Below, piece by piece: positions 50,276 through 53,264 of a stretch of DNA of 64,000 nt. This stretch comes from Halopseudomonas sabulinigri (GTDB lineage Bacteria; Pseudomonadota; Gammaproteobacteria; Pseudomonadales; Pseudomonadaceae). The notes below the pieces were generated by a model. The model saw only the letters and a program-made list of their open reading frames with translations. It had not been told where the DNA came from and ran no database searches. Within the stretch, counting starts at the first letter, position 1. Each line of letters opens with the position of its first letter. A program made the position numbers and the translations under genes. The stretch lies in the NCBI RefSeq assembly GCF_900105255.1, contig NZ_LT629763.1, forward strand, positions 1,488,001 to 1,552,000, in the 5' to 3' direction.

Positions 50276-51958
50276 ATGAGCGCTGTTATTCTGTTGTTGG
50301 CCGGTCTGGCCATGATGTCTCTGGGGTACTTCATCTACTCCAAGTTCATCGCCGAAAAGATCTATCGCCTTGACCCCGACTATCGTACGCCAGCGCACGA
50401 GTTTGAAGACGGCGTCGATTTTGTCCCCACCAACAGGTTCGTACTCTGGGGCCACCATTTCACCTCGGTCGCTGGCGCAGCGCCCATCGTCGGCCCCGCT
50501 ATAGCCGTGATCTGGGGCTGGGCACCGGCCTTTTTATGGGTGGTATTCGGCACCATCTTCTTTGCCGGCGTACACGACATGGGCGCCATCTGGGCCAGCG
50601 TGCGCAACAAGGCCCGCTCGGTCGGCTCGCTGACCGGCGATGTGGTCGGCAAGCGCGCCCGCAGCATCTTCATGATCGTCATCTTCCTGGTATTGCTGAT
50701 GGTCAACGCGGTCTTTGCCGTGGTGATTGCCAAACTGATGATGAGCTTTCCGACCGCCGTATTGCCGGTCTGGGGCGCCATTGGTGTGGCACTGATCGTC
50801 GGCCAACTGATTTACCGTCGCATCCTCAACCTGGTCAGCGTCTCAGTTATCGGTGTGATTGCGCTCTACGCGCTGATCTTTGCCGGCCCGTCCATGCCGA
50901 TTCAGATGCCTGCCGAGGTAGCTGGCGTCTCCGGTAACGCAGTCTGGATCGTGCTGCTGTTCATCTACGCAGGTGTAGCGTCGATCCTGCCGGTGTGGAT
51001 GCTGCTGCAACCGCGCGATTACATCAACGGTCTGCAACTGTTTGTGGGCTTGCTGATTCTCTACGGCGCCATCCTGCTGCTGAATCCGACAATGGTTGCC
51101 CCCATGTTCAATGATGCCGTGCCCGCCGGTACGCCCTCGATAATACCGCTACTGTTCGTCACCATTGCCTGCGGGGCGATATCCGGCTTCCACGGCTTGG
51201 TCGCTTCCGGCACCACGTCCAAGCAGTTGAACAAGGAAACCGACGCACGCTTTGTTGGCTACTTCGGTGCTATTGGGGAGGGTTGTCTGTCGCTGGCGGC
51301 GATTCTGGTCGCCACCGCCGGCTTTGCCAGTCTGACCGACTGGAAGGCCATGTACTCGGCCTTTGGCCAGGGCGGCGTCACCGCCTTTGTTGAGGGCGGT
51401 GCGTACATCATCCACAACGGGCTGGGCCTGCCGCAGGTCACTGCTGCCACGCTGCTCACCGTTATGGCGGCGCTCTTTGCCGGTACCACCATGGATACCG
51501 GCCTGCGCCTGCAGCGTTACATTTTCCAGGAATTTGGCGAAATCTATAACCAGCCCTGGATGCAGAAACCTCTGGTTGCCACCCTGCTGGCGGTTGGCAG
51601 CTGCATGTTGCTGGCATTCGGTGCCGGCGCCGATGGCTCCGGCGGCATGATTATCTGGCCGCTGTTCGGCACCACCAACCAGTTGCTCGCCGGCCTCACC
51701 CTGCTGGTAATCACCGTGATGCTGGTGCACATGCGCCGCCCGATGTGGTACACCCTGGCGCCACTGTGCTTTCTGCTGGTAATGACCGTGGTGGCGCTGC
51801 TGACCCAGCTGCGCACCTTCTATCAGCAGGAGAACTACTTCCTGCTGTTTCTCGACATTGTGGTACTGATAGCAGCCATTCTGGTGGCCATGGAATGTGC
51901 CGCCGCACTCAAGCGCCACCGCGCGATAGCGGCTGCAGAGGACGGCAATGCCTCCTGA
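50276..51958 (+). CDS. cstA: Carbon starvation protein A (CstA family transporter)
   Basis: 560 residues, about 14-16 helices, the shorter CstA form. RLDPDYRTPAHEFEDGVDFVPTNRFVLWGHHFTSVAGAAPIVGPAIAVIWGW, FAGVHDMGAIWASVRNKARSVG, SGFHGLVASGTTSKQLNKETDARFVGYFGAIGEG and IWPLFGTTNQLLAGL are CstA signatures. CstA-type proteins import pyruvate or peptides. Its end overlaps a cory-CC-star gene, which is followed by an ArsA-like ATPase. Confidence 0.94.
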   Translation: MSAVILLLAGLAMMSLGYFIYSKFIAEKIYRLDPDYRTPAHEFEDGVDFVPTNRFVLWGHHFTSVAGAAPIVGPAIAVIWGWAPAFLWVVFGTIFFAGVHDMGAIWASVRNKARSVGSLTGDVVGKRARSIFMIVIFLVLLMVNAVFAVVIAKLMMSFPTAVLPVWGAIGVALIVGQLIYRRILNLVSVSVIGVIALYALIFAGPSMPIQMPAEVAGVSGNAVWIVLLFIYAGVASILPVWMLLQPRDYINGLQLFVGLLILYGAILLLNPTMVAPMFNDAVPAGTPSIIPLLFVTIACGAISGFHGLVASGTTSKQLNKETDARFVGYFGAIGEGCLSLAAILVATAGFASLTDWKAMYSAFGQGGVTAFVEGGAYIIHNGLGLPQVTAATLLTVMAALFAGTTMDTGLRLQRYIFQEFGEIYNQPWMQKPLVATLLAVGSCMLLAFGAGADGSGGMIIWPLFGTTNQLLAGLTLLVITVMLVHMRRPMWYTLAPLCFLLVMTVVALLTQLRTFYQQENYFLLFLDIVVLIAAILVAMECAAALKRHRAIAAAEDGNAS

Positions 51959-52229
51959 AAAAGCCGGGGAGTGGCGCGCCTGGCTAGGCAAGGCGCGCTT
52001 CTTTCTCGAGGAAACCTACAGCACGCGCTACCGTGGCGCCATTGCCCGGGCACGGCGCGATGAAGATGACCTGTTCATGCTGCTGGTGTTCTCGGAGATG
52101 ATGGGCGTGCCCAACCCAGCCAGCTATTACACCCTGGAACTGCAGCCGCTGTTGCTGCAGCGCTTCCATGACTGGCACAGACGCATGGGCATGGAGCACT
52201 CGCCGCTGGACCACTTTCGCTGCTGCTGA
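51948..52229 (+). CDS. cory-CC-star family small protein
   Basis: 93 residues: AWLGKARFFLEETYSTRYRGAIARARRDEDDLFMLLVFSEMMGVPNPASYYTLEL, ending in HFRCC directly before the TGA stop, the C-terminal Cys-Cys that gives the family its name. From memory, members lie beside cstA and ArsA/Get3-like ATPases, as here. It overlaps cstA by 11 bases. The ATPase open reading frame continues in the same frame after the TGA. Confidence 0.85.
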   Translation: MPPEKAGEWRAWLGKARFFLEETYSTRYRGAIARARRDEDDLFMLLVFSEMMGVPNPASYYTLELQPLLLQRFHDWHRRMGMEHSPLDHFRCC

Positions 52230-52244
52230 TCTGGAGCACCCGCT

Positions 52245-53264
52245 ATCACTACCGCACGCTTTGACCTGCTCAACCGCCGCCTGATCTGGGTCGGCGGCAA
52301 GGGCGGGGTAGGCAAGACAACTGTCTCCGCCGCCCTTGCCGTACTCGCCGCCGGCCGCGGCAAACGCTGCCTGATTGTCTCAACCGACCCGGCGCACAGC
52401 CTGGGCGACGTGTTCGCCAAGCAGCTGGACGACACACCACGGCGCCTGCTGCCCAACCTCGATGCCATGGAAATCGACCCCGATACCGAGGTCGAAGCGC
52501 ACCTGGCACGCGTCAGCGCCCAGATGCGCCGCTTCGCCAGCGCCGAAATGCTGCCGGAACTGGAGCGCCAGTTGCGGCTGACGCGGCAGTCCCCGGGCAC
52601 CCAGGAAGCAGCACTGCTGGAACGGATTGCCCGGCTGATCAGCACGCCGCACCCCGAGTACGACCTGATCATTTTCGATACCGCGCCCACCGGCCATACC
52701 CTGCGACTGCTTACCTTGCCAGAGGCCATGGCCGCCTGGACCGAGGGACTGCTCAGCCATAACCGCAAGTCAGAGGAACTGGGCAAGGTATTGCAACACC
52801 TTACGCCCAAGCGCGGTCGCGATATCGACAGCCCTTTTGATACGCCGCAAACCAATGAACTGGGCGACCTTGACCGCAAAACCCGCGACATCGCCGATAC
52901 TCTGCTAAACCGCCGCCGACTATTCCACCAGGCCAGGCGGATACTCAAGGATCATCAGCAAAGCGGCTTTCTGTTCGTGCTCACGCCAGAGCGTTTGCCT
53001 ATACTGGAAACCGCCCGCGCAGTCAGCGCGCTGCAATCGGTGGACATTCCCATCGTCGCCGCACTGATCAACCGGGTGATTCCGGCGACGGCCGACGGTC
53101 AGTTTCTACAACGCCGTCGAGAACAGGAAGCCAGCTACCTGCAGCGTATTGAGCACGAGCTTGGACACTTGCCGCTACCCCGCTTGCCGTGGTTGGAAAC
53201 CGACGTCCAAGGTCTGGATATTCTGCAGAGCATTGCTGAACAATTGGCAGCTCAGGGCTTCTAA
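52245..53264 (+). CDS. ArsA/Get3-family ATPase with no canonical start codon
   Basis: 339 residues if initiated at ATC 52245. LIWVGGKGGVGKTTVSAALA is the deviant Walker A of ArsA/Get3, LIVSTDPAHSLGD is switch I and DLIIFDTAPTGHTLRLL is switch II. The frame is open back to the cory-CC-star TGA (52227-52229), but no ATG, GTG or TTG occurs before the P-loop; the first ATG would remove it. GGAG at 52233-52236 lies 8 bases before ATC, so an ATC start is the best candidate, with UGA read-through or a base-call error as alternatives. It has no DsbC-like second half, so it is a single-domain ATPase. It probably works with CstA. Confidence 0.85.
   Translation: MTTARFDLLNRRLIWVGGKGGVGKTTVSAALAVLAAGRGKRCLIVSTDPAHSLGDVFAKQLDDTPRRLLPNLDAMEIDPDTEVEAHLARVSAQMRRFASAEMLPELERQLRLTRQSPGTQEAALLERIARLISTPHPEYDLIIFDTAPTGHTLRLLTLPEAMAAWTEGLLSHNRKSEELGKVLQHLTPKRGRDIDSPFDTPQTNELGDLDRKTRDIADTLLNRRRLFHQARRILKDHQQSGFLFVLTPERLPILETARAVSALQSVDIPIVAALINRVIPATADGQFLQRRREQEASYLQRIEHELGHLPLPRLPWLETDVQGLDILQSIAEQLAAQGF

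Follow-up and report, generated by a model that had tools for sequence, protein, structure and literature searches.

A single-domain GET3/ArsA-family ATPase gene of one Halopseudomonas clade very probably starts at AUU or AUC

An ATPase frame with no canonical start ahead of its P-loop

How is translation of a gene initiated when neither ATG, GTG nor TTG is found ahead of its first conserved motif? The question is raised by an ATPase gene in the window, by which we mean the whole 64,000-nucleotide stretch of Halopseudomonas sabulinigri DNA that was analysed. The gene is the last in a run of three on the + strand, encoding a CstA-family transporter, a cory-CC-star small protein and the ATPase, which looks like one operon. 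The features are as follows.

50276..51958, + strand: gene of the CstA-family (carbon starvation/pyruvate-type) transporter (PF02554, E 1.5e-139)
51948..52229, + strand: gene of the cory-CC-star small protein (NF041419, E 5.7e-40, 135 bits against a cut-off of 80)
52227..52229, + strand: TGA stop of cory-CC-star, 15 nt ahead of the proposed ATPase start
52233..52236, + strand: putative ATPase Shine-Dalgarno (SD) sequence GGAG, unchanged in 9/9 clade members
52245..52247, + strand: proposed ATPase start codon ATC, with ATC or ATT at the same codon in 9/9 clade members
52245..53264, + strand: GET3/ArsA-family single-domain ATPase, 339 aa when counted from the ATC (TIGR00345, E 1.3e-77, 261 bits against a cut-off of 135; PF02374, E 1e-74)
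52293..52319, + strand: P-loop of the ATPase, GGKGGVGKT, read from the sequence

The cory-CC-star gene overlaps the 3' end of the transporter gene. Its product was assigned to this class from a score above the NF041419 cut-off and from its C-terminus, Cys-Cys followed directly by the TGA at 52227-52229; a Pfam search with the same protein returned no family even at E 10. The ATPase belongs to the TRC40/GET3/ArsA class, with a TIGR00345 score above the cut-off and an intact P-loop.

The reading frame of cory-CC-star stays open beyond its TGA, from 52230 to 53264, and runs into the P-loop, as a first-pass annotation of this DNA had described; the distance that it gave, about 25 codons, came to 21 when counted. 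Direct reading bore out its statement that no ATG, GTG or TTG lies between the Cys-Cys-TGA and the P-loop at 52293. The earliest canonical start in the ATPase frame is a GTG at 52410, 39 codons beyond the first glycine of the P-loop, so that a start there would remove the Walker A motif. The ATC at 52245-52247, proposed in the same annotation as a rare start giving the N-terminus MTTARFDLL, is indeed preceded by GGAG at 52233-52236 with a spacer of 8 nt. As a chance yardstick, when 60-nt pieces were drawn at random from the window, 0.31% had an in-frame ATT or ATC 5-9 nt after GGAG, and 0.11% had one when the spacing was limited to 7-8 nt.

One codon position that reads ATT or ATC in nine species

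We searched 37 genomes of the genus for the ATPase. An ortholog, with an identity of at least 73%, was detected in 25 of them; in the other 12, some of which are incomplete genomes, only distant P-loop proteins were found. A CstA frame lies upstream of the ATPase in all 25 loci, and so does a cory-CC-star frame. Across the 37 genomes cory-CC-star and the ATPase co-occur, both being present in the same 25 and both missing from the same 12.

With codons numbered relative to the P-loop, ATG stands at codon -12 in 16 of the 25 orthologs. The other nine have no ATG there, and their codon -16 is ATC in two cases, the window genome (G000) and an H. sabulinigri MAG (G018), and ATT in seven, namely neustonica (G010), oceani (G011), aestusnigri (G002), pachastrellae (G012), abyssi (G001), UBA836 (G023) and G008. 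The arrangement typical of infC, an AT[TCA] codon with a normally spaced SD kept across species, was found in all nine, with GGAG 8 nt upstream in three species and 7 nt upstream in six. The comparison of starts in closely related genomes that the first-pass annotation had proposed thus found eight further species with an ATT or ATC here, and the shared codon position, the GGAG and the near-identical spacing favour its rare ATC start. On these comparisons an AUU/AUC start site of the ATPase is well supported.

The frame is open up to the P-loop with no ATG, GTG or TTG in six of the nine species, the window genome included. Ill-placed GTG or TTG codons are present in the remaining three: GTG at -1 in G018, GTG at -1 and -19 in G010, and TTG at -9 in G023. 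By eye, none of these has an SD at a normal distance; the TTG at -9 in G023 and the GTG at -19 in G010 are possible alternative starts. At the Pseudomonas neustonica loci L004 and L038 an in-frame GTG, nine nt ahead of the ATT, shares bases with the ATPase SD (GGAGTG), and by eye this GTG has no SD of its own.

Since ATC is a single base away from ATG, the first-pass annotation had also considered a sequencing error that hides a true ATG. With the corresponding codon reading ATT or ATC in the genomes of eight further species, a local error is excluded, and we give this explanation practically no credence.

Conservation of the proposed start site and selection on the ATPase

On the tree of the nine ATT/ATC species, in which the order among G000, G010 and G018 is weakly supported, the four-fold degenerate sites of the ATPase underwent a mean of 2.55 changes, and 7/115 were unchanged. 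The six sites formed by the AT of the start codon and the GGAG are all unchanged on this tree, and the third base of the start codon changed twice, between T and C only. On the assumption that these six evolve as four-fold sites do, their invariance would have a probability of ~5e-8; the figure serves as a rough guide, since other constraints may act on leader sites.

The loss of the ATG would also be seen if the ATPase were untranslated and decaying in this clade. The coding sequence argues strongly against such decay. Median dN/dS was 0.098 within the nine species (35/36 pairs; dS partly saturated, with a median of 1.26 and a largest value of 4.19) and 0.095 among the ATG species (115/120 pairs), and the frame is free of internal stops in 9/9. 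By these measures the gene is functional and under purifying selection, with dN/dS about 0.10, and decay is scarcely conceivable.

The putative SD of the nine species is also the stronger one. The best pairing with the anti-SD had a mean energy of -6.8 kcal/mol in the nine ATT/ATC species versus -4.3 in the 16 ATG species (Mann-Whitney p 0.0003, a value that overstates independence since a single clade is compared with the rest).

Read-through of the TGA and initiation at CUG

Another way to produce the ATPase would be read-through of the TGA, by suppression or selenocysteine insertion, into a fusion of cory-CC-star with the ATPase, which the first-pass annotation had listed as an alternative. 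The shared open frame in the window and a SelB match above the family cut-off in the window genome speak for it. The frame relationship that the annotation had reported is true of the window, but it is not conserved among relatives. Only two of the nine ATT/ATC species have an in-frame TGA; two have an in-frame TAA (G010 and G012), and in five the ATPase lies in a different frame. Among 79 ATPase loci from named genomes, which come partly from the same Halopseudomonas genomes as the genus set, the cory-CC-star stop is TGA in 52, TAG in 14 and TAA in 13, and the frame is common to both genes in 37/79. There was no excess of structure at the junction (z 0.39 and 1.39), and an Rfam scan of the junction gave no relevant match, only a weak match to mir-3155 that appeared on both strands and fell short of the gathering score. 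As a mechanism common to the clade, read-through is ruled out by the two TAA stops together with the five frame differences, and for the window it is very improbable. Because the frame is not conserved, its sharing by cory-CC-star and the ATPase appears incidental.

The SelB match lies at C1:3901277-3903100 of the window genome (L184), and this genome may decode selenocysteine.

CUG is a near-cognate start codon, and initiation could be imagined at the CUG seven codons downstream of the ATC, at 52266 (UUG in G023). This codon, at -9, is CTG in eight of the nine species and TTG in G023. The leucine at codon -9 is, however, also present in the relatives that start at ATG (MFDLL), which gives a coding reason for its conservation. 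A normally spaced SD is absent, the GGAG ending 29 nt before the CUG with nothing nearer by eye, and a CUG start would leave the conserved GGAG and ATT/ATC unexplained. We consider it unlikely.

Origin of the proposed ATT/ATC start

The nine ATT/ATC species form one side of a branch that separates them from the 16 ATG species, with support of 100/99 in a tree of PcnB, IF3 and ThrS and of 95/93 after cory-CC-star and CstA were added. These trees on other genes were rooted on G034 and G009, in agreement with the ATPase tree, for which Halomonadaceae and relatives served as the root; PcnB was available for 21/25 genomes, and G023 entered without IF3 and ThrS. Since the nine species form one clade on other genes, the switch from ATG to ATT/ATC probably happened once.

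The ATPase tree by itself does not settle a single origin. It gave one change, with support 62/82, when the locus L106 was left uncounted, and two changes when L106 was removed from the tree, where a one-clade tree was not rejected (p-AU 0.41). One switch is the simplest reading of these sequences, and parallel switches in two lineages, both reaching this codon position, are the less likely alternative. Whether the ATPase tree implies one change or two has no bearing on the start-site assignment, whose probability is thus unaffected.

Comparison with known AUU and AUC starts

Start at AUU/AUC with a strong SD, after loss of an ancestral ATG and with a lowered output to be expected, is very probably the explanation of the ATPase gene in these nine species. 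To our knowledge, conserved AUU/AUC starts have been described for few bacterial genes, and the ATPase, with the start proposed here, adds a Gammaproteobacterial gene to this small class. Binns and Masters reportedly described, in 2002, an AUU start for pcnB of E. coli.

The start codon of both infC and pcnB in E. coli is given as AUU (PMC9410913, in the portion consulted). We used infC of the genus as a control. The gene was present in 33/37 genomes, and in 32/32 loci read (L116-L145, L182 and L183; L129 in the window genome) the start region is GGAG-N8-ATT. The first ATG is four codons downstream of the ATT, so that this control rests on homology. The ATPase resembles infC in joining an ATT/ATC start to a strong SD, and in the window it has the same GGAG-N8 layout, with ATC; it differs in that IF3 represses its own start, whereas no role in translation is known for the ATPase. 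The pcnB gene of E. coli resembles the ATPase as a gene for something other than an initiation factor, with a weak AUU start holding its output down, although the two genes are unrelated. Halopseudomonas PcnB was recovered in 21/25 genomes with the pattern M[IL]RK, and because the ATG of MIRKLL is a candidate start in all 21, it was unsuitable as a second positive control.

Fixed or conserved non-canonical starts like that of the ATPase are also described for cvfC1 (AUU) and ccpN (AUA) of Staphylococcus aureus (PMC13009471, in part) and for rnhC (ATC) of Listeria (PMC13068326, in part), which are, in contrast, other genes from Firmicutes. In infC, cvfC1 and ccpN of S. aureus a strong SD is placed beside a weak start, and an extended SD and a lower output were measured in S. 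aureus: in the consulted portion of that report, AUU/AUA starts with an extended SD gave about 10%, and once up to 30%, of AUG output (PMC13009471).

Predicted output of the ATPase and possible control by IF3

The reading that we prefer can be set out as a mechanism. The ATPase would initiate at the AUC at 52245, decoded by initiator tRNA as Met (MTTARFDLLNRRLIWVGGKGGVGKTT...), and the strong SD GGAG, 8 nt upstream, would position this start 15 nt after the cory-CC-star stop. The ancestor of the clade would have lost the ATG that the other species use, the start having shifted four codons upstream to an AUU/AUC, and this state would since have been maintained by selection beside the strong SD. 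As AUU and AUC are weak and opposed by IF3, we infer that the cell would make far less of the ATPase than of CstA and cory-CC-star; some of this loss could be made up by the stronger SD. A throttle on the ATPase relative to its partner, suggested in the first-pass annotation, is plausible. Retention of a very rare weak start in each of the nine species examined suggests that the ATPase is meant to be scarce, as a low-abundance partner whose dose would have been lowered in this clade.

Initiation at non-canonical starts is inhibited when IF3 is raised (PMC2268962, in the portion consulted), and ATPase output should for this reason be IF3-sensitive, falling as IF3 rises in the manner of infC and E. 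coli pcnB. By analogy with such genes, the output is probably low and sensitive to IF3. That the ATPase partner of a carbon-starvation-type transporter is placed under IF3-dependent translational control in this clade through its AUU/AUC start is a more tentative proposal, which we hold possible but rather doubtful. It is weakened by the behaviour of S. aureus, where the response to medium, in the portion of the report consulted, was clear for ccpN and modest for citZ (an AUA reporter), and the AUU site of cvfC1 gave none (PMC13009471). If true, the ratio of the ATPase to the transporter and cory-CC-star would track initiation-factor level and growth state, and a link of translation status to nutrient uptake would have arisen in one clade and then been fixed.

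Operons of cstA, cstX and arsA, encoding CstA, the small protein CstX and single-domain ArsA homologues of ~330 aa, are described in PMC2963123, and they resemble the window in combining a one-domain ArsA homologue with CstA and a small protein. The ATPase is proposed there to energise CstA, perhaps via CstX; the consulted portion of that report does not remark on the start codon of arsA. A pyruvate uptake system of E. coli is described as consisting of CstA together with the small protein YbdD (PMC5847655, in part). Cory-CC-star occupies the position of CstX and YbdD, a likeness by position alone.

Searches of the open-licence PMC literature gave no paper naming cory-CC-star, and none whose title or beginning of the abstract deals with the start of the Halopseudomonas ATPase, which does not prove it unpublished. 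With ATG in sister species and AUU/AUC in one clade, this gene group offers a natural setting in which to compare a fixed weak start with an ordinary one. A gene finder restricted to ATG, GTG and TTG would truncate or miss the ATPase of the window, since its frame offers a canonical start only after Walker A, and owing to this blind spot AUU/AUC genes may be under-counted.

Distribution among wider relatives

The 79 loci from named genomes were also compared for their start codons. ATG was found in 70 of them (66 at -12, two at -17 and two at -15). Five have no ATG, GTG or TTG within codons -9 to -25, and four have GTG or TTG only. All five of the former, together with L038 and L076 of the latter, belong to the Halopseudomonas clade. 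The other two loci with GTG or TTG only are L106 (Litchfieldella) and L114 (a gammaproteobacterial MAG), whose codons -16 are CTT and TCC. Among the 79 loci the ATT/ATC start is confined to one Halopseudomonas clade. More distant relatives, 28 in number and at 41-53% identity, came from other genera of the family.

Two loci show changes in the ATPase itself. In L046, from a Halomonas MAG, the P-loop reads GGKGGVGET, the Walker A lysine being replaced by Glu, which may be a MAG error. In L112, from Alkalilimnicola ehrlichii, the ATPase frame is broken soon after the P-loop in the manner of a frameshift.
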